Source: a virus. Taken from it: a DNA stretch of 30,145 bases. The DNA lies in the IMG/VR virus record IMGVR_UViG_3300042463_001415, positions 1 to 30,145 of that record; one strand, given 5' to 3'. Both the position numbers and the translations under genes were made by a program. The notes below the pieces were generated by a model that saw only the letters and a program-made list of their open reading frames with translations, was not told the DNA's origin and ran no database searches. Every line of letters starts with the position of its first letter. Within the stretch, counting starts at the first letter, position 1. Below are positions 5,104 to 19,700 of this stretch, in pieces.

Positions 5104-7152
5104 ATGTCAGATTTTTTCTCATTCAGGCTTCCAGTAGATTTCGTTGAAAAATACTCTACTTTAGAGGCACCATTTGGTTTTAAAGATGCAGGAGAAAACT
5201 CCATTGGAGAAATTACTTTTGCTAGAACGTACTCACGCATCAAAGATGATGGATCTAAAGAACGCTGGTATGAGGTTTGCCGTAGAGTTATTGAGGGAAT
5301 GTATTCTGTACAGAAAAACTATGCAAAAGATAACCGTCTTCCTTGGAATGATCACAAAGCTCAGGCCTCAGCCAAAGAAGCTTTTGACCGTATGTTTAAT
5401 TTAAAGTGGACACCTCCAGGACGTGGGCTGTGGACATTTGGAACTGCTCTAACAATGGAAAAGCGTAACTCTGCTGCTCTACAAAACTGTGCAGCAGTTT
5501 CTACAAAAGACATAGATAAGAACGATCCAGGTGCGTTGTTTGCTTGGGTTATGGATGCCCTGATGCTTGGCATTGGTGTTGGCTTTGATACTCTTGGTCA
5601 AGATAAAAATCTTCCAATTTCTGAACCAGCAGAACCAGCGGTTGTTTATGAAATTCCAGATACTCGTGAGGGGTGGGTAGAGTCAACAAGACTACTGATT
5701 AACTCATTCTTAAGATCAAATCAAAGTGTTCAAGAATTTGATTATTCTGTAATTAGGCCTTTGGGATCACCAATTAAGGGGTTTGGTGGAACTGCATCAG
5801 GTCCAGAACCACTACAACAACTTCATAATCAAATCCGTAAGGTGATTGGAAGTCGTGCTGGAGAAACACTAGACTCTCGTGCAATTGTAGATATCGTAAA
5901 CTTAATTGGTACTTGTGTTGTTTCTGGAAACGTTCGCCGTTCCGCAACCCTTGCATTAGGATTAGAAGATGATGATGCCTTCTTAAATTTAAAGAATGTA
6001 GAAGCGTTCCCAGAACGTAACAGCTATGACCCAGAAAATCCAGGTTGGGCTTGGATGAGTAACAACTCTATCTCAGCTAACGTTGGTATGGATTACTCAA
6101 AATATGTAGATCGAATTGCAGACAATGGTGAGCCAGGATTTATTTGGCTAGACGTTGCTCGAAATTATGGTCGTTTAGCAGACCAGCCTGATGGTGCAGA
6201 TTATCGTGTAGTTGGCTTTAATCCTTGTGCAGAACAACCACTTGAGTCATATGAACTTTGTACATTAGTTGAGGTACATCTAAATCGTCACGATTCAAAA
6301 GAAGATTTCTTGCGTACACTAAAGTTTGCATATTTATATGGAAAGACTGTAACCTTGCTTCCAACTCACTGGCAGCAGACTAATGGAATTATGCAACGTA
6401 ATCGCCGTATTGGAACATCACTTACTGGTATTGCATCATTTGCTGATGAGAACGGTTTGCCAACTGTTCGTAATTGGATGGATGAAGGATACAATAAGAT
6501 TCGTTTCTATGACAAGAAGTACTCAGAATGGCTATGTGTTCGTGAATCAATTCGTGTAACCACAGTAAAGCCATCAGGTTCAGTGTCATTGCTTTCTGGA
6601 GCAACTCCTGGAGTTCACTGGGGACCAGGTGGAGCATTCTATCTACGTGCTATTCGTTTTGGCAACACAGATCCAATGCTACACTTGTTCAAAGCAGCAG
6701 GGTATAAGTGTGAAGACGACCTAGTGTCAGCAAACACTACAGTAGTATACTTCCCAATTAAGTCTGGTCAGAAGCGTAGTGAAAAACAGGTTACCCTATT
6801 TGAAAAGATGTCCCTTGCAGCCACAGCTCAAGAATATTGGTCAGATAATGGTGTCTCAGTTACCTTATCATTTGATAAAGAATCAGAAAAGCAACACGTA
6901 GCATCTGTTCTTAATATGTACGAGGGTAAGCTAAAGGCAGTATCATTCCTTCCAATGGGAAATCAAGTATACCCTCAACAACCATACACAGAAATTACAG
7001 AAGAAGAATACGATTACTACATTGGTCGCATTTCTAAGATTGATTTTTCTGCAATCTATGATGGTGTAGAAAACTTAGAAGCCGTTGGCGAAAGTTATTG
7101 TACAACAGACTACTGTGAAATTAAAGTTCCAGATAAAAGAGCAAAAAAATAA
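5104..7152 (+). CDS. nrdJ: class II (B12-dependent) ribonucleoside-triphosphate reductase
   Basis: 682 residues, close to the monomeric RTPR of Lactobacillus leichmannii. Motif spacing matches that enzyme: Cys129 in LQNCAAV and Cys386 form the active-site redox pair; NPCAE at 373-377 holds the thiyl-radical Cys375 and Glu377; the C-terminal shuttle pair Cys666/Cys671 is five apart, as in the model enzyme. Cys375 to Cys386 is 11 residues, as known for C408/C419. It converts NTPs to dNTPs using adenosylcobalamin, without oxygen and without a second subunit. It is a single-gene unit with its own promoter and terminator. Confidence 0.95.
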   Translation: MSDFFSFRLPVDFVEKYSTLEAPFGFKDAGENSIGEITFARTYSRIKDDGSKERWYEVCRRVIEGMYSVQKNYAKDNRLPWNDHKAQASAKEAFDRMFNLKWTPPGRGLWTFGTALTMEKRNSAALQNCAAVSTKDIDKNDPGALFAWVMDALMLGIGVGFDTLGQDKNLPISEPAEPAVVYEIPDTREGWVESTRLLINSFLRSNQSVQEFDYSVIRPLGSPIKGFGGTASGPEPLQQLHNQIRKVIGSRAGETLDSRAIVDIVNLIGTCVVSGNVRRSATLALGLEDDDAFLNLKNVEAFPERNSYDPENPGWAWMSNNSISANVGMDYSKYVDRIADNGEPGFIWLDVARNYGRLADQPDGADYRVVGFNPCAEQPLESYELCTLVEVHLNRHDSKEDFLRTLKFAYLYGKTVTLLPTHWQQTNGIMQRNRRIGTSLTGIASFADENGLPTVRNWMDEGYNKIRFYDKKYSEWLCVRESIRVTTVKPSGSVSLLSGATPGVHWGPGGAFYLRAIRFGNTDPMLHLFKAAGYKCEDDLVSANTTVVYFPIKSGQKRSEKQVTLFEKMSLAATAQEYWSDNGVSVTLSFDKESEKQHVASVLNMYEGKLKAVSFLPMGNQVYPQQPYTEITEEEYDYYIGRISKIDFSAIYDGVENLEAVGESYCTTDYCEIKVPDKRAKK

Positions 7153-7266: not shown

Positions 7267-8940
7267 ATTAAAAAAATATTACGCTTAGCAACAGTTTTTA
7301 TGTTGTCACTTGTTCCTTTAATATTTATTTCACCTACGACCAATGCGGTTATAGCTGAACAGCCTTGCAATACTTATTCTTGGACAGGAGAAGATGATAC
7401 TGCTCATCAAATGGATCTGACAAACCCTTTAAATCTTGGAGATGTGACATACGACACTACTTATGTAACTACTAATGGAACTCTTACTTTTGGTACTCCT
7501 GACGCTAATTTTAGTTCATACCCTAATACCCCATCCATATCCTTGGCTGGCTATGACTGGGTAACATTTGGTGAGGGTACTAGCTTAAGCTATGGTTCAA
7601 CAAATACAGGATTTTGTGTAGAGTGGAAGGTAAGACCTTTTCCCCAAAATACTGGAAACATTACAACCATCAAACTAACTGTTGATACCTCAAGACTTCC
7701 CTCTTGGTCTGGAATTATTGAAACTACTGGTTGGCTTCCAGCAGATCTTAGAAGAGGTATCAGGTTTGCACCTGGACAAGATGTTGTTACTATATCAGAA
7801 GCTTTTACAATTAATGGTGGAGTTCCAGTAGAAATGCAAACTTGTTGGGATGGAACAATTATTCCAATGTCTGGAACCTGTCCTGCAGAACCACCACCTG
7901 GCCAATGCTGGGATGGATCAACTGTTGCTTACAACGAAACTTGTCCCCCAATTCCACCTGACACACAATGTTGGGATGGTACTTGGATTGCTTGGAGCCA
8001 AACCTGCCCACAGCAGCCACCACCAATTGAGTGCTGGGATGGTAGCTCAGTTAACTGGAACGCTCAGTGTCCTCCAACCCCACCTAATATTATTTGTTGG
8101 GATGAGTCTGTAGTTTTGTGGAATCAAATATGTCCTGTGGAACCCACACCAGAACCAACATTAACCCCTACTCCAGAACCAAGTGAAAGCTTAACACCAG
8201 AGCCAACTCTAGAACCAACACCAAGCGTTACTCCAGAGCCAACACCTATTCCAACCCAAACAATGGAGCCAACACCAACTCCAGAACCAACGCCAAGTGC
8301 TGAGCCAACACCTATTCCAGATCCAAGTGTTGACCCAACTCCAGAGCCTACATCAATAGTAGATCCAACTCCAGAACTAACAGAAGAAACTGTTGCACCA
8401 ACACCAGAAGAGACACTGGAGCCTACCCCTTCCCCAGAACCTTTACCTAGCACAGAAGAAACAGATCCCCCTACTACTACAGAAACTTCTGAAGAGGAAC
8501 CAATTTCTTCTGCAGAAAATATACCAAACGAATTATCTGTTGACGAGCTAATGCAGATAGACCTAGAAGAGATTGTGGCTACAGATCTAACAGTTGAGCA
8601 GCTAGATGCTTTGACTGAGGCAGCCTTGGAAGTTTTTGAAACAGCAGAGCCAGGGTCTGAAGAATATCAACAAGCTCTTGAAACTCTATTTCTAGTAGCT
8701 CAAGCAGATGATATTATTTTGAATGAATCTCTAGCAGCTATTCCACTTCTTGGAGATATCCTTGGTGGTACAACAGAACTCATTAACTTTTTGGGAAATG
8801 TGGGGGCAGATATGAGTCCTCAGGTTAGAGAGCAGTCAGAAAAAATAGTCGTTACAGCAGTTGTTGCAGTGCAAGTAGCACTATCAGCAATTTCTTTAAG
8901 CGGTATAGCAACAACAGTAAACCTAAGAAATGGAGCATAA
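7267..8940 (+). CDS. secreted, membrane-anchored repeat protein with ATT start
   Basis: 557 residues from ATT at 7267, chosen because AAGGAGA lies seven bases upstream and only this start restores a full signal peptide (Lys-Lys, then a hydrophobic core, then NAVIAE). The first ATG (7300) would remove its basic end. Order: signal peptide 1-30; beta-rich domain about 31-190; five 21-residue CWDG repeats 193-290; a long Pro-Glu-Pro-Thr linker to about 415; an acidic helical domain; a hydrophobic segment near 526-548. It should be exported and tethered to the envelope. It heads the unit with two small membrane proteins. A role in superinfection exclusion, adhesion or lysis control is possible; I do not recognise the family. 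Confidence 0.8.
   Translation: MKKILRLATVFMLSLVPLIFISPTTNAVIAEQPCNTYSWTGEDDTAHQMDLTNPLNLGDVTYDTTYVTTNGTLTFGTPDANFSSYPNTPSISLAGYDWVTFGEGTSLSYGSTNTGFCVEWKVRPFPQNTGNITTIKLTVDTSRLPSWSGIIETTGWLPADLRRGIRFAPGQDVVTISEAFTINGGVPVEMQTCWDGTIIPMSGTCPAEPPPGQCWDGSTVAYNETCPPIPPDTQCWDGTWIAWSQTCPQQPPPIECWDGSSVNWNAQCPPTPPNIICWDESVVLWNQICPVEPTPEPTLTPTPEPSESLTPEPTLEPTPSVTPEPTPIPTQTMEPTPTPEPTPSAEPTPIPDPSVDPTPEPTSIVDPTPELTEETVAPTPEETLEPTPSPEPLPSTEETDPPTTTETSEEEPISSAENIPNELSVDELMQIDLEEIVATDLTVEQLDALTEAALEVFETAEPGSEEYQQALETLFLVAQADDIILNESLAAIPLLGDILGGTTELINFLGNVGADMSPQVREQSEKIVVTAVVAVQVALSAISLSGIATTVNLRNGA
7843..8157 (+). repeat. five tandem 63-bp (21-residue) CWDG repeats
   Basis: Cysteines fall at residues 193/205, 214/226, 235/247, 256/268 and 277/289 (numbering from the ATT start), an exact period of 21. 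Each unit begins CWDG (CWDE in the last), ends in CP, and is joined by a short Pro-rich linker. The strict Cys spacing suggests one disulfide per unit. Confidence 0.9.
8139..8470 (+). repeat. Pro-Glu-Pro-Thr low-complexity linker
   Basis: Repeated PEPT/PTPEP/PIP units encoded by degenerate CCA-GAA/ACA triplets. It is a typical extended stalk for a surface protein and could carry O-linked sugars on Thr. An open antisense frame of 109 codons across it is a composition artefact. Confidence 0.85.
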
Positions 8941-8941
8941 A

Positions 8942-9130
8942 ATGAAATTTTTAGCAGCATTAGTCAAAGACCTTCTAGAGCAATCCTGGACATTGCTTGG
9001 AATGGTCATTGCTTGGCTAGTTCTTGAGGGTTCCGCAAAAACTCTCACAGGAAAATTAATATTAATTACCCTATTAGTATGGGCAGTTAGTTTTCCAATT
9101 TTTCGTTATGAAAAAGAAAACAACAAGTAG
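8942..9130 (+). CDS. small two-TM membrane protein, possible holin
   Basis: 62 residues from ATG 8942, preferred over ATG 8930 because GGAG at 8932-8935 is correctly spaced for it; 8942 also follows the upstream stop at once. Two hydrophobic segments (about 14-31 and 38-52) flank a short turn, and the C-terminus is charged (RYEKENNK). Size and topology fit a holin or an antiholin-like partner of the next gene, 15 bases downstream. No specific family recognised. Confidence 0.65.
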   Translation: MKFLAALVKDLLEQSWTLLGMVIAWLVLEGSAKTLTGKLILITLLVWAVSFPIFRYEKENNK

Positions 9131-9145
9131 AAAGGAAATACAAAT

Positions 9146-9421
9146 ATGAAAAAAGAAGTAGAAGTCGTTGCAGTAGCAGGAGGACTTAGCACACTGAAGA
9201 ATGTGTTTTGGCGTATCCTAGCTGTCTTCGCAGCATCAAGCCTATCTGTTTTAGGTGCAGGTGCTGTAGTTGGCATAGATTTAATTTCAGCAGTTCTTAT
9301 GGCAGGTATTCTAGGAGTAGCAACAGTAATTGAAAAGCTCGCTAGATCTTTCCTAGAAGATGGAAATTTGTCACTAGAAGAAATCAACGCTGCCTTTGCT
9401 AAGGTAGACAAAAACGCTTAA
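9146..9421 (+). CDS. holin-like membrane protein
   Basis: 91 residues, ATG 9146 after a GAAAGGA ribosome site. Two hydrophobic helices (about 22-44 and 47-64) are followed by a charged, probably cytoplasmic tail (LARSFLEDGNLSLEEINAAFAKVDKNA). Topology and length resemble r1t-type holins of actinophages, which form the membrane lesions that release endolysin. It is close to the M23 peptidase and the lysozyme-like gene. Family assignment is tentative. Confidence 0.65.
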   Translation: MKKEVEVVAVAGGLSTLKNVFWRILAVFAASSLSVLGAGAVVGIDLISAVLMAGILGVATVIEKLARSFLEDGNLSLEEINAAFAKVDKNA

Positions 9422-9442
9422 ATACTACAATTAGGCAACCCC

Positions 9443-9471
9443 TTGACAGTCCCCTCTAGATAGTGTATACT
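9443..9471 (+). promoter_or_regulatory. consensus promoter of the Ntn-hydrolase gene
   Basis: TTGACA (9443-9448) and TATACT (9466-9471) with a 17-bp spacer. The start falls near 9478, leaving a leader of about 24 nt that contains GGAGGGG before the ATG at 9502. Confidence 0.8.
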
Positions 9472-9497
9472 TATATGTGACCATTCTGGAGGGGACT
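9448..9497 (+). repeat. 13-bp inverted repeat spanning promoter and ribosome site
   Basis: The arms 9448-9460 and 9485-9497 are inverted copies with 12 of 13 positions matching. The left arm covers the end of the -35 box and the spacer; the right arm contains the GGAGGGG ribosome site of the gene at 9502. Confidence 0.6.
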
Positions 9498-9501
9498 TTT
9501 T

Positions 9502-10035
9502 ATGACCTGCATAGCTGCAGTAAAAGCTAACGGCAAAGTATACGTAGCAGGAGATCGTGGAGCATCAGATCAAGATGCCCATATGATATTAAACTTATCA
9601 AAACCAAAAGTCTTTAAGGTTGGAGACTATGTATTTGCATTTGCAGGTACTATGGAGGGTCAACGTGTCGCATATAGTTTTGATCCACCAAAGCCACACC
9701 CTGAAGAAGATCTTGATGTATTTATGCACACCATATTCTTAAAAGCATTACGTGCATACTATGAAGAGTGGTGGTTTCCAACTGATAATGAATCAGAATT
9801 CTCTATGATCATTGCGTATAAAGATAAGCTATACGAGCATAATGCTGCAGATATGTCTATGACAGAATATACCGCAAATTTTATAGCAATTGGTTCTGGA
9901 GCAGAATATGCTATGGGATATCTTTCTGCTGTTATAGCATCTAAAAATCCAGAACAGGCTGTTGAGTCTGCAGTAAAAACTGCAATTAAATTTTCACCAA
10001 CTTGTTCTGGAACGGTTGACATTTTTACCACTTAG
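9502..10035 (+). CDS. proteasome/HslV-like Ntn-hydrolase
   Basis: 177 residues starting Met-Thr-Cys-Ile-Ala-Ala. After removal of Met, Thr1, Asp17 (AGDRGAS) and Lys33 (LSKPK) sit at exactly the catalytic positions of proteasome beta subunits and HslV. The following YVFAFAGT strand and the later IGSGAEYA loop also match the fold. It lacks a propeptide, like HslV. Known relatives are threonine proteases in ring assemblies fed by an ATPase; no ATPase partner is seen here. It has its own strong promoter. It could modify the host proteasome, process virion proteins, or act alone. Fold well supported; substrate unknown. Confidence 0.8.
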   Translation: MTCIAAVKANGKVYVAGDRGASDQDAHMILNLSKPKVFKVGDYVFAFAGTMEGQRVAYSFDPPKPHPEEDLDVFMHTIFLKALRAYYEEWWFPTDNESEFSMIIAYKDKLYEHNAADMSMTEYTANFIAIGSGAEYAMGYLSAVIASKNPEQAVESAVKTAIKFSPTCSGTVDIFTT

Positions 10036-10044
10036 TGGTATGAT
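10016..10044 (+). promoter_or_regulatory. leaderless promoter inside the end of the Ntn-hydrolase gene
   Basis: TTGACA 10016-10021, 17 bp, then TATGAT 10039-10044 preceded by TGG (extended -10). Exactly six bases separate it from ATG 10051, so the transcript should begin on the start codon. Confidence 0.75.
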
Positions 10045-10050
10045 TTATTT

Positions 10051-10245
10051 ATGGGTATGATAAAAGATATGGCAATTAATGTAGATGAGGCCTGGGAATG
10101 GCTAGAAATCGGAATAGAAAAAGGGTGGGTAACAAAACCCTTCTGCTATACTCACGATGGTGATCCTTATATGACTGAGGAAGAGTATCAGGAGTGGGAT
10201 GAGGGTGGAGATCCTTGTGCTCCAGTTATTAAATTCTTAGTATAA
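10051..10245 (+). CDS. small acidic protein of unknown function
   Basis: 64 residues, acidic and Trp-rich (AWEWLEIGIEKGWVT, YMTEEEYQEW). There is no ribosome site; the start is set by the promoter six bases upstream, so it is read as a leaderless mRNA. A second in-frame ATG (10057) is less likely. Separately promoted single gene just before the tRNA array. Function not recognised. Confidence 0.7.
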   Translation: MGMIKDMAINVDEAWEWLEIGIEKGWVTKPFCYTHDGDPYMTEEEYQEWDEGGDPCAPVIKFLV

Positions 10246-10285: not shown

Positions 10286-10359
10286 GCGAATGTTGCATAA
10301 AGGTAGTGCCTCTGCCTTCCAAGCAGACGGTGAGGGTTCGATTCCCTCCATTCGCTCCA
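10286..10359 (+). tRNA. tRNA-Gly (anticodon TCC)
   Basis: Acceptor GCGAATG pairs with CATTCGC; anticodon stem TCTGC/GCAGA with loop CTTCCAA; T-stem GAGGG/CCCTC around TTCGATT. The CCA end is encoded, the only complete one among the seven tRNAs here. Reads GGA codons. Confidence 0.93.
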
Positions 10360-10361
10360 AT

Positions 10362-10435
10362 GGTCTGGTGGCTCAGTTGGTTAGAGCACCGCCCTGTCAC
10401 GGCGGAGGTCGTGGGTTCAAGTCCCATCCAGATCG
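10362..10435 (+). tRNA. tRNA-Asp (anticodon GTC)
   Basis: Acceptor GGTCTGG/CCAGATC, anticodon stem CCGCC/GGCGG with loop CTGTCAC, discriminator G. Followed by CA only, so the host must complete CCA. It begins three bases after tRNA-Gly, so the two are probably co-processed. Confidence 0.95.
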
Positions 10436-10449
10436 CATAAAGCACCAAA

Positions 10450-10530
10450 GGTAGAGTTGGGCAGGTGGTGAGCCCCTTTGACTGTAAATCAAACGCTTTA
10501 GCTGTGTAGGTTCGATTCCTATCTCTACCA
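10450..10530 (+). tRNA. tRNA-Tyr (anticodon GTA)
   Basis: Acceptor GGTAGAG/CTCTACC, anticodon stem TTTGA/TCAAA with loop CTGTAAA, and a long variable arm as expected for bacterial tRNA-Tyr (class II). Discriminator A; CCA not encoded. Confidence 0.93.
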
Positions 10531-10535
10531 CGCAA

Positions 10536-10608
10536 TCCCCAATAGCTCAATTGGCAGAGCGTTAAACTGTTAATTTAAATGTTCCTGGTTCGAGTCCAGG
10601 TTGGGGAG
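10536..10608 (+). tRNA. tRNA-Asn (anticodon GTT)
   Basis: Acceptor TCCCCAA/TTGGGGA, anticodon stem TTAAA/TTTAA with loop CTGTTAA, T-arm around TTCGAGT, discriminator G followed by CA. Last of the four-gene array. Confidence 0.93.
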
Positions 10609-10631
10609 CAAAAGTAATATTATTTTTTTAA

Positions 10632-10640
10632 TGGTATAAT
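10632..10640 (+). promoter_or_regulatory. extended -10 promoter of the M23 peptidase gene
   Basis: TGGTATAAT with TATAAT at 10635-10640. The leader of about 38 nt contains a small hairpin (GGGT at 10647-10650, ACCC at 10655-10658) and GAAAAGG at 10669-10675 before ATG 10685. Confidence 0.6.
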
Positions 10641-10684
10641 TAAGTTGGGTTTTTACCCCGTTTAATTTGAAAAGGATGATATAT

Positions 10685-11074
10685 ATGGGTTCACCAATTG
10701 TTGGAGGTAAGGTTACAACACCTTACAAGAAGCTTGGAAAAATGTGGAGCAAAGGTTACCACACAGGAGTAGACTATGCTTGCAAAGTAGGAACAGACAT
10801 TGTTGCTGTTGCAGATGGCAAGATTGAAAATGCTACCTGGGGTGCCAGCTATGGCACTCAACTAGTTCAAAAAGTTGAGGGTGGCTGGGTAATCTATGCA
10901 CACCTTTCAAAGGCTCTAGTTAAGGCTGGAGACAAAGTAACAAAGGGACAGCACATTGCAGAGTCTGGTAATACAGGTAACTCTTCAGGTCCTCACCTTC
11001 ACTTTGAAATGAGAGATAACATTAGATGGAGTGCAGGTAAGGATATTGATCCTGCTGCAATTCTAGCTAAGTAG
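10685..11074 (+). CDS. M23 (LytM-type) peptidoglycan endopeptidase
   Basis: 129 residues from ATG 10685, placed nine bases after GAAAAGG; TTG 10667 and ATG 10676 are in frame but lie in or beside the ribosome site. It is a bare catalytic domain with the M23 zinc ligands His26 and Asp30 (HTGVD) and the HLH pair at 104-106, plus YAHLS between. Such enzymes cut peptide cross-bridges of the cell wall. There is no signal peptide or wall-binding domain, so release would depend on a holin. A terminator follows. It could instead be virion-associated, but its place beside the lysozyme-like gene favours lysis. Confidence 0.9.
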   Translation: MGSPIVGGKVTTPYKKLGKMWSKGYHTGVDYACKVGTDIVAVADGKIENATWGASYGTQLVQKVEGGWVIYAHLSKALVKAGDKVTKGQHIAESGNTGNSSGPHLHFEMRDNIRWSAGKDIDPAAILAK

Positions 11075-11083
11075 TCTTAGATT

Positions 11084-11112
11084 TAGCCCTTGAGTTTTTC
11101 AGGGGCTATTTC
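11084..11112 (+). terminator. stem-loop terminator after the M23 gene
   Basis: TAGCCCTTGA (11084-11093) pairs with TCAGGGGCTA (11099-11108), ten pairs with one G-U, loop of five, followed by TTTCT. The weak T tract makes termination probably partial. Confidence 0.65.
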
Positions 11113-11121
11113 TATGCCTAT

Positions 11122-11150
11122 TTGACAAATATTGTTACATATGTTAAACT
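11122..11150 (+). promoter_or_regulatory. leaderless promoter of the exported lysozyme-like gene
   Basis: TTGACA 11122-11127, 17 bp, TAAACT 11145-11150 preceded by TGT. Six bases later comes the second of two adjacent in-frame ATGs (11154 and 11157). Confidence 0.7.
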
Positions 11151-11153
11151 AGA

Positions 11154-11687
11154 ATGATGCGTATCAGAACCTTGGTTTTGGTATCCCTAACTGCGGTTCT
11201 TGTTGCAACAGTAAATGGAAATTTACGAGCAACACCCCTACCAGTTAGCCAATACCAAACCAGTGCTAATGCACCGCAAAAAACAAAACTGGATTTAATT
11301 ATGCCAGAGACTGCTATACAAAGCAACCCCATAAAAGCTGAAAGAGCTAGTAGAAGCAATGTTAGAAAAACAAACTCTAACATTGAATCCAATAAAGCTT
11401 TTGCTCAGTCATTTATGGCAGAAACATATGGATGGAAAGAAGATCAATTTCAATGCTTGGTCTCTTTATGGGAAAGAGAAAGTGGATGGAAGCATACTGC
11501 TGATAACCCAAACTCAAGTGCTTATGGAATCCCACAGGCACTCCCAGGAAAGAAAATGGCAAGTTCTGGATCTGATTGGGAAACTAATCCACACACCCAG
11601 ATTAAATGGGGTCTAGAGTACATACAGGGGCGTTACGACACTCCCTGTGGTGCCTGGAAGTCATTTAAGAAGAAAGGCTGGTATTAA
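11154..11687 (+). CDS. exported lysozyme/transglycosylase-like protein
   Basis: 177 residues (176 if the leaderless ATG 11157 is used). N-terminal signal peptide (Arg-Ile-Arg then a hydrophobic stretch to about 21), a Ser/Lys-rich linker to about 80, then a lysozyme-superfamily domain: CLVSLWERESGW with likely catalytic Glu107 or Glu109, the SSAYGIPQALPG loop, and a C-terminal WGLEYIQGRYDTPCGAW resembling actinobacterial SLT/Rpf-like hydrolases. Two domain cysteines may form a disulfide. It should cut glycan strands outside the membrane via Sec export, complementing the M23 peptidase. Followed by tRNA-Met. Confidence 0.8.
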   Translation: MMRIRTLVLVSLTAVLVATVNGNLRATPLPVSQYQTSANAPQKTKLDLIMPETAIQSNPIKAERASRSNVRKTNSNIESNKAFAQSFMAETYGWKEDQFQCLVSLWERESGWKHTADNPNSSAYGIPQALPGKKMASSGSDWETNPHTQIKWGLEYIQGRYDTPCGAWKSFKKKGWY

Positions 11688-11698
11688 GTAAACCAGTA

Positions 11699-11772
11699 GG
11701 GGTGTTAGCTCAGTTGGTTAGAGCAGCAGACTCATAATCTGCCAGTCGTAGGTTCGAGCCCTACACACCCCA
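11699..11772 (+). tRNA. tRNA-Met (anticodon CAT)
   Basis: Acceptor GGGGTGT/ACACCCC, anticodon stem GCAGA/TCTGC with loop CTCATAA, discriminator A followed by CC. The first pair is a normal G-C, so it is not an initiator type. A lysidine-modified Ile tRNA cannot be excluded from sequence alone. It starts 12 bases after the lysozyme-like gene. Confidence 0.9.
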
Positions 11773-11783
11773 CCTTAATGCAG

Positions 11784-11789
11784 TATAAT
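11784..11789 (+). promoter_or_regulatory. -10 box before tRNA-Ile
   Basis: TATAAT ends ten bases before the tRNA's first base, so the primary transcript would have almost no 5' extension. Confidence 0.55.
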
Positions 11790-11798
11790 TTAATACAC

Positions 11799-11869
11799 GC
11801 TCCTTTAGCTTAGTGGTAGAGCTCGCCCTGATATTGCGAATGTCGTCAGTTCGATTCTGACAGGGAGCA
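11799..11869 (+). tRNA. tRNA-Ile (anticodon GAT)
   Basis: Acceptor GCTCCTT/AGGGAGC with wobble pairs, T-arm GTCAG/CTGAC around TTCGATT, discriminator A. The anticodon loop reads CTGATAT. The last stem pair below the loop is a C-T mismatch (TCGCC/TGCGA), an oddity. CCA not encoded. Confidence 0.85.
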
Positions 11870-11876
11870 CTGAATA

Positions 11877-11885: not shown

Positions 11886-11941
11886 AGATTTGCTTGCCCA
11901 TCAGGGGAGCAAAAAATAACTCGCTTAAAAGGAGCAAAAAT

Positions 11942-12349
11942 ATGAATAATCTAAATGCGTGGGCAAATAACCCATATATGATTGGTTGGGATACATTTTT
12001 CCCAAAGCTAGAAACCCTAGCAAAGACAAACTCAACGAGTTTTCCTCCATACAACGTCAGAAAAGTAGATAGTGATAATTTTATCATTGAGTTGGCAGTT
12101 GCTGGCTACAATAAGTCAAATCTAACTGTTACAGAAGAAGATTGCTGTGTGACAGTAGTTGGAGAACTTCCTGAAACAAATGATGAATATCTACATAAAG
12201 GTATCGCTGGTAGAAAGTTTACAAGAACCTTTTCTTTAGCTGAGCATATGCTCACAGATGGTCTAAATCTAGTTGATGGTATGCTTTTAATTAAAATTAA
12301 AAGAGAAATTCCAGAAGAAAAAAAGCCAAAAACTCTTACAATTAAATAA
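11942..12349 (+). CDS. small heat-shock protein, Hsp20/IbpA-like
   Basis: 135 residues from ATG 11942, which has AAAAGGAGC nine bases upstream. The alpha-crystallin domain is clear: YNVRKVDSDNFIIELAVAGY, then GIAGRKFTRTFSLAEHM, then LVDGMLLIKIKREIPEEKKP and a short C-terminal tail. IbpA-like proteins hold unfolding proteins as oligomers. Phage-encoded Hsp20 is common in T4-like aquatic phages and is thought to aid late protein folding or virion assembly. Separately promoted. Confidence 0.92.
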   Translation: MNNLNAWANNPYMIGWDTFFPKLETLAKTNSTSFPPYNVRKVDSDNFIIELAVAGYNKSNLTVTEEDCCVTVVGELPETNDEYLHKGIAGRKFTRTFSLAEHMLTDGLNLVDGMLLIKIKREIPEEKKPKTLTIK

Positions 12350-15452: not shown

Positions 15453-15737
15453 GTGCAGAATCGTAATTGGAAAGACGAGGCTGCGTGTCTTGGACTGGAT
15501 AGAGAGCTATTCTTTGATAAGTATGAAGAAAATGTTGATATCAGAAAACAAATGGATGAATTCTGTAGGGAATGTCCAGTTAAAAAGGTGTGCTTTGCAT
15601 CAGCAATCTCAGATAAAAACTGGGGTCTTTGGGGTGGGGTATATCTTGAAAATGGTGAAATCTCTAGAGAATTTAATAGACACAAAACAAAGCAAGACTG
15701 GGCAGATACCTGGCAAAGTCTGACAATGGAGCAGTAA
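15453..15737 (+). CDS. WhiB-family Fe-S transcription factor
   Basis: 94 residues from GTG 15453, with GGAG at 15443-15446 six bases upstream. All WhiB marks are present: Trp6, AAC with Cys12, CxxCPVxxxC with Cys38, Cys41 and Cys47, then the WGLWGG turn and a basic C-terminal tail. These cysteines hold a [4Fe-4S] cluster; Wbl proteins bind region 4 of the principal sigma factor and redirect transcription. Phage Wbl proteins (for example WhiBTM4) can repress host whiB2 and block superinfection. It is the strongest pointer to an actinobacterial host. Confidence 0.95.
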   Translation: MQNRNWKDEAACLGLDRELFFDKYEENVDIRKQMDEFCRECPVKKVCFASAISDKNWGLWGGVYLENGEISREFNRHKTKQDWADTWQSLTMEQ

Positions 15738-19622: not shown

Positions 19623-19627
19623 TAGGG

Positions 19628-19700
19628 TCCCTCTAGAGAGATTCGAACTCCCAACCTAATCGGTAGAAACGATGTGCTCTGTCCGTTGAGCTATAGAGGG
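19628..19700 (-). tRNA. tRNA-Arg (anticodon TCT)
   Basis: Minus strand acceptor CCCTCTA pairs perfectly with TAGAGGG; anticodon stem CATCG/CGATT (four pairs) with loop TTTCTAC; T-arm around TTCGAAT; discriminator A. Reads AGA, an Arg codon common in A+T-rich genes. It stands alone, between the four-TM gene and the glycosyltransferase pair. Confidence 0.9.

Follow-up and report, generated by a model that had tools for sequence, protein, structure and literature searches.

A proteasome/HslV-like threonine hydrolase gene preceded by a conserved promoter-overlapping hairpin in a clade of viral contigs

The viral contig analysed here, 30,145 bases long (the whole stretch, hereafter the window), encodes, at positions 9502..10035 of the plus strand, a proteasome/HslV-like Ntn hydrolase of 177 amino acids (177 codons); the open reading frame is real, and its homology to proteasome and HslV subunits is far beyond chance. 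Hydrolases of this type are already known from many phages, and the clade described here adds a member with a hairpin-gated promoter; this conserved promoter is a more instructive part of the locus than the hydrolase itself. The interpretation that we favour, with moderate confidence, is that the protein belongs to the branch of HslV and BPH (betaproteobacterial proteasome homolog) and is a probably active, self-assembling peptidase that works without an unfoldase and is encoded by a gene insulated by the hairpin.

Family assignment and predicted fold

The Pfam Proteasome profile (PF00227) matches the hydrolase with 30.6 bits, above the curated cut-off of 22.4, and PHROG_1040, “peptidase HslV family”, matches it with an E-value of 2.3e-23 over residues 1-176. 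The score against the HslV equivalog model of NCBIfam (TIGR03692) is 23.2 bits, below the cut-off of 157.75, and that against the PrcB model (TIGR03690, 20S proteasome beta subunit) is 18.1 bits, below the cut-off of 191.9. Given that both scores fall far under the equivalog cut-offs, HslV orthology and PrcB membership were dropped. A sequence search with the profile of the hydrolase family retrieves BPH (6e-9) and HslV (7e-9), followed by actinobacterial proteasome beta subunits (1e-6), and a library of anti-phage defence proteins gives no match.

An AlphaFold2 model built with 69 relatives from viral contigs reaches a pLDDT of 93.5 and a pTM of 0.89, and has its strands and helices in the same succession as a proteasome beta-type subunit, the helix pairs lying at residues 50-59/71-89 and 134-144/150-164. 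Among solved structures, the best match to the model is BPH (Z 20.6, rmsd 2.2 over 164 residues), followed by HslV (Z 20.3) and the 20S subunits (Z 18-19, with the Mycobacterium proteasome chains at about 19). The comparison of a predicted structure with HslV and PrcB that had been proposed in the preliminary description thus reveals the alpha-beta-beta-alpha sandwich, in the model and in its structural matches alike, rather than a fold lacking it, and places BPH and HslV nearer than PrcB. Together with PF00227 and PHROG_1040, the predicted fold and the structural matches bear out the original identification of the protein as a proteasome/HslV-like N-terminal threonine hydrolase. BPH (e.g., PDB entries 5ovs and 5ovu) is the best match both by structure and by profile, but is only about 20% identical to the hydrolase and is encoded by a bacterial gene. 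HslV (ClpQ) shares with the hydrolase the fold, the size and the positions of the catalytic lysine and threonine; the hydrolase differs in scoring far under the NCBIfam cut-off and in that no HslU partner is seen in 8 phage records.

Relatives of the hydrolase are found in 150 records of isolated phages, and a scan derived from one alignment verified relatives in 278 viral stretches. Some are carried by phages that infect Vibrio, Salmonella and E. coli, bacteria that possess HslV and lack a 20S proteasome. Proteasome-like genes also occur in the actinophages DSL-LC01, Microbacterium phage Pumpernickel, and Arthrobacter phages Hum25 and Pitbull, and the present clade is added evidence that actinophages carry such genes. 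In a phylogenetic tree, the clade of the window stands alone (support 100/100) on a long branch, apart from these four phages; judging from the length of this branch, the function could have drifted. More distant relatives, at about 31% identity, are carried by rhizobial plasmids. On plasmid B of Sinorhizobium americanum (L144), a 32% identical homolog lies amid rpoN, nifQ, an iron-sulfur assembly gene and nifS; the homologs on other rhizobial plasmids (L145-L147) are found in different contexts.

Fuchs, Alva and Lupas (2021; PMC8665760) reported 22 new proteasome homologs, with PPH and AAH frequent in phages; they found propeptides to be limited to the proteasome beta subunit and HslV, no co-occurring AAA+ partner for the new homologs, and no Actinobacteria-specific phage with AAH. 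The genomic contexts in that survey, phage homologs included, gave no hint of function, and it is here that the present clade offers a handle. Like PHROG_1040, AAH and PPH, the hydrolase is a phage-encoded, compact group-I-like subunit with the Thr/Asp/Lys positions, devoid of a propeptide and with no dedicated AAA+ partner seen; unlike them, it forms its own long-branch clade, has Asp or Glu at position 18 and is preceded by the conserved hairpin-gated promoter. Membership in PPH (about 140 residues, without helix H2) was excluded, the hydrolase having 177 residues and both helices 50-59 and 71-89 in the model. The model fits the AAH architecture (compact group I, helices H1-H4; propeptide and C-terminal S12/H5 absent), a match by architecture only, and the rhizobial plasmid relatives would suit an AAH assignment although they are no proof of it.

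Catalytic residues and selection

The open reading frame begins with Met-Thr-Cys and has no propeptide, in agreement with the preliminary description. The presumed nucleophile is Thr2 (codon 9505..9507, plus strand), which would become Thr1 once the methionine is removed. This residue is invariant in an alignment of 70 sequences and in all 14 clade members compared, and nearly so in a 13-row alignment, the exception being phage pT24, whose protein starts with Met-Ser-Thr; the profile alignment pairs it with Thr1 of HslV. The position of the proteasome Asp17 is taken by Asp18 (codon 9553..9555, plus strand), which in the clade alignment is Asp in 6 of the 14 members and Glu in the other 8, while the distant phage relatives in the 13-row alignment have Asp. 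The Thermoplasma beta subunit, which is established as active, also has Glu at the equivalent position (ATERR).

The probable catalytic lysine, equivalent to Lys33 of the proteasome and HslV, is Lys36 (codon 9607..9609, plus strand). It directly precedes the third main strand, is invariant in both the 13- and the 70-sequence alignments as well as in the clade alignment, and is matched by the profile alignment to the lysine of the HslV motif ARKVRKL (Lys33) and to the BPH lysine. Lys34 (codon 9601..9603, plus strand; residue 33 in Thr1 numbering) was rejected as a candidate: it is replaced by Arg in one close relative and by assorted residues in distant ones, and the residue aligned with HslV Lys33 is Lys36. 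Counting to 33 hits the wrong lysine because two residues are inserted in this hydrolase compared with its clade. Thus, the triad originally assigned as Thr1, Asp17 and Lys33 stands with respect to the threonine and to the acidic position, with Asp or Glu allowed, but its lysine is to be moved from Lys34 to Lys36, and with this correction the three positions are conserved among the relatives. As judged from these alignments, the hydrolase has an N-terminal threonine and the equivalents of Lys33 and Asp/Glu17, namely Thr2, Lys36 and Asp/Glu18.

Two features count against the favoured interpretation, the Glu at position 18 within the clade and the residue at position 46, the probable oxyanion position, which is Ala in this protein only and Gly in 13 of the 14 clade members. 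Pairwise dN/dS values within the clade range from 0.007 to 0.19; therefore, the hydrolase is under strong purifying selection.

A hairpin over the promoter and the ribosome-binding site

A sigma-70-type promoter, TTGACA-17-TATACT, is located upstream of the hydrolase gene at 9443..9471 (plus strand). It agrees with the consensus at 11 of 12 positions, a score that never arose when the upstream 90 nt were mononucleotide-shuffled 1000 times, and is kept in the clade: of the 14 relatives compared, 12 have a promoter with 11-12 of the 12 positions directly before the hydrolase gene. In the other two (L025 and L038), the promoter and the hairpin described below precede an inserted extra first gene that is methyltransferase-like. 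The strong independent promoter noticed at the outset is thus confirmed as near-consensus, above shuffles and conserved, and it looks like one that the housekeeping sigma factor of the host would recognise. The inserts (L025:1242-2068 and L038:5183-6001), between promoter/hairpin and hydrolase gene, resemble SAM-dependent methyltransferases and, by eye, spermidine synthase.

A hairpin has its left arm, AGTCCCCTCTAGA (9448..9460, plus strand), in the last part of the -35 box and in the promoter spacer; this arm lies 5' of the expected transcription start and pairs over 13 positions with the right arm, TCTGGAGGGGACT (9485..9497, plus strand), containing the Shine-Dalgarno sequence GGAGGGG (9488-9494). 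The 80-nt RNA 9441-9520 has a predicted folding energy of -31.1 kcal/mol (z -4.4, with no shuffle equally stable), and across five loci the z values of the hairpin range from -3.2 to -4.4; the bare 64-nt hairpin segment (-26.4 kcal/mol) falls within the top 20 in stability when 7521 segments of the window are ranked. The Shine-Dalgarno sequence of the hydrolase is the most deeply buried of 24 starts examined, and its probability of being unpaired is about 0.00 in read-through RNA versus 0.44-0.78 in RNA from its own promoter at all 8 loci compared, for the latter of which transcription was assumed to begin about 24 nt upstream of the ATG. These predictions suggest that mRNA reading through from the upstream genes, in which the 13-bp hairpin can form, would have its ribosome-binding site hidden, and that mRNA starting at the gene's own promoter would leave the site exposed.

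Pairing of the arms survives compensatory and wobble changes within the clade (e.g., TA/TG/CG and GT/AT/TA), as counted after anchoring the arms at CCCCT and GAGGGG, given that MAFFT misregistered the right arm in part of the clade. Conservation of the right arm may partly reflect the constraint on the Shine-Dalgarno sequence. The left arm is conserved within a promoter spacer, although promoters need no fixed spacer sequence. Seventeen IMG/VR contigs each contain a single copy of the exact element, and its close form occurs once in the window, compared with 0.01 expected. Two contigs with the element are new: one is readable and has the hydrolase gene after the element, and the other ends just within the hydrolase gene. 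An Rfam search at the hairpin identifies no family.

In phage T4, hairpins mask the ribosome-binding sites of genes e, soc, 49 and I-TevI in read-through RNA (PMC2988022, PMC3014915). The present element, as computed, resembles them in that the site is hidden only in read-through RNA and in that the gene's own promoter overlaps the 5' arm; the gene and the phage group differ, and, unlike the late T4 promoters, the promoter here is host-sigma-like, such that the timing may be reversed. Because the promoter resembles one for the housekeeping sigma factor of the host, the hydrolase is probably made early rather than from late read-through transcripts. The extended version of this idea, namely, that the hydrolase is an unfoldase-free protease produced only early and that the hairpin blocks its late read-through translation as a reversed T4-type switch, sparing late virion proteins, is speculative and rather unlikely. 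The inverted repeat could instead be an operator acting as DNA or could terminate transcription, considering that such repeats within promoters frequently serve as operators and that some clade members have a T-run after the stem. The stem, however, tolerates G-T wobble pairs, as suits RNA, the T-run of several members is only TTTCTT, which is weak for a terminator, and one arm is complementary to the Shine-Dalgarno sequence itself, so that we regard a role other than a translational switch as a serious but minority possibility.

Gene neighbourhood, host and possible function

The clade comprises 23 IMG/VR loci with 57-100% identity, in which, wherever the contig reaches and with a few single-gene exceptions, the hydrolase gene is preceded by the same three genes on the plus strand. 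These encode a proline-rich protein (7300..8940), probably exported and anchored as judged from its sequence, the C-terminal part of which belongs to the conserved neighbourhood, a 66-aa hydrophobic protein (8930..9130), and a 91-aa hydrophobic protein that appears holin-like (9146..9421). The last of these matches PHROG_26427, labelled “nuclease”, yet its look is hydrophobic and holin-like. Downstream, a gene for a 64-aa protein (10051..10245, plus strand) has a 36-74% identical match after the hydrolase gene in relatives, and the surrounding M23 peptidase, Hsp20 and nuclease genes differ between relatives. An actinobacterial host is plausible because the window contains a WhiB gene (15453-15737) and a terminase 54% identical to that of Streptomyces phage Jay2Jay; whiB serves as an actinophage marker. 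The host is thus probably an actinobacterium. No close relative of the hydrolase emerged when bacterial genomes were scanned.

The preliminary description had noted that no ATPase partner is visible, and this extends to the window and seven related records, which may be incomplete: none of the 8 contains an AAA_2 domain (PF07724; HslU/Clp-type), and none of the seven contains a second proteasome-like gene, with at most one PF00227 match each. PF00004 gives three weak matches in the related records (in L122, G002 and a shorter frame of G007). The match in L122 was rejected as an AAA+ partner, reading as a kinase/nucleotidyltransferase-like P-loop protein, and that in G002 equals it in score and in the length of the frame.

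Because neither a propeptide nor a second subunit nor an AAA+ unfoldase is found in the window and the seven records, a self-assembling peptidase independent of an unfoldase is the likeliest form of the enzyme. In this scheme, the host methionine aminopeptidase would remove Met1 and free Thr2 as the nucleophile, the attack of which would be aided by Lys36 and Asp18, an activity to which the predicted fold, the conservation and the purifying selection point. The subunits would most likely form a homomeric ring or double ring, as in HslV and BPH, and would most likely need no dedicated AAA+ unfoldase to act on peptides or unfolded proteins, perhaps in turnover or quality control during infection. 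Purifying selection, the fixed gene order and the conserved on/off element together suggest that hydrolase made from the wrong transcript is costly.

The preliminary description had suggested that the protein could replace, poison or redirect host beta subunits, and a probable actinobacterial host and the match of the fold to the Mycobacterium proteasome chains would be compatible with an attachment of this kind to the host 20S proteasome (PrcA/PrcB). Nevertheless, BPH and HslV are nearest both in sequence and in structure, the family is also present in phages whose hosts have no 20S proteasome, and the premise that Actinobacteria own a 20S proteasome does not hold for all of them, the control genome of Corynebacterium glutamicum giving no PF00227 match; the proposal is unsupported and we consider it very improbable. 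An HslV-type fold in phages in whose records no phage-encoded unfoldase is seen would also suit a hybrid ATP-dependent protease formed with a host unfoldase (HslU-like, ClpX/ClpC or Mpa/ARC), which appears improbable in view of the survey cited above, where no co-occurring AAA+ interactor was seen (PMC8665760). Connectase shows that the superfamily is capable of other chemistry (PMC8665760), and the hydrolase might accordingly be a specific ligase or amidase rather than a general protease; against this, the first helix pair, missing in connectase, is present in the model, which is without an evident long insertion at the connectase site, and such an Ntn-type enzyme is quite improbable here.

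The unfoldase-independent peptidase remains our preferred interpretation, and several further features of the window are recorded alongside it. A gene for an Hsp20 small chaperone (11894-12349) is located near the hydrolase gene here and in several relatives. A cluster of six tRNA genes (Gly, Asp, Tyr, Asn, Met and Ile) occupies 10286-11870, and a tRNA-Arg gene is found on the opposite strand at 19626-19700. A class II (B12-dependent) ribonucleotide reductase of 682 aa is encoded at 5104-7152, its barrel domain being matched only weakly, and scans of bacterial genomes found no close relatives of this phage enzyme. A second promoter-like site close to consensus, TTGACA-17-TATGAT (10016..10044, plus strand), overlaps the 3' end of the hydrolase gene and precedes the next small gene; at this site there is a perfect TACCACTTAGTGGTA inverted repeat, which is absent from most relatives.
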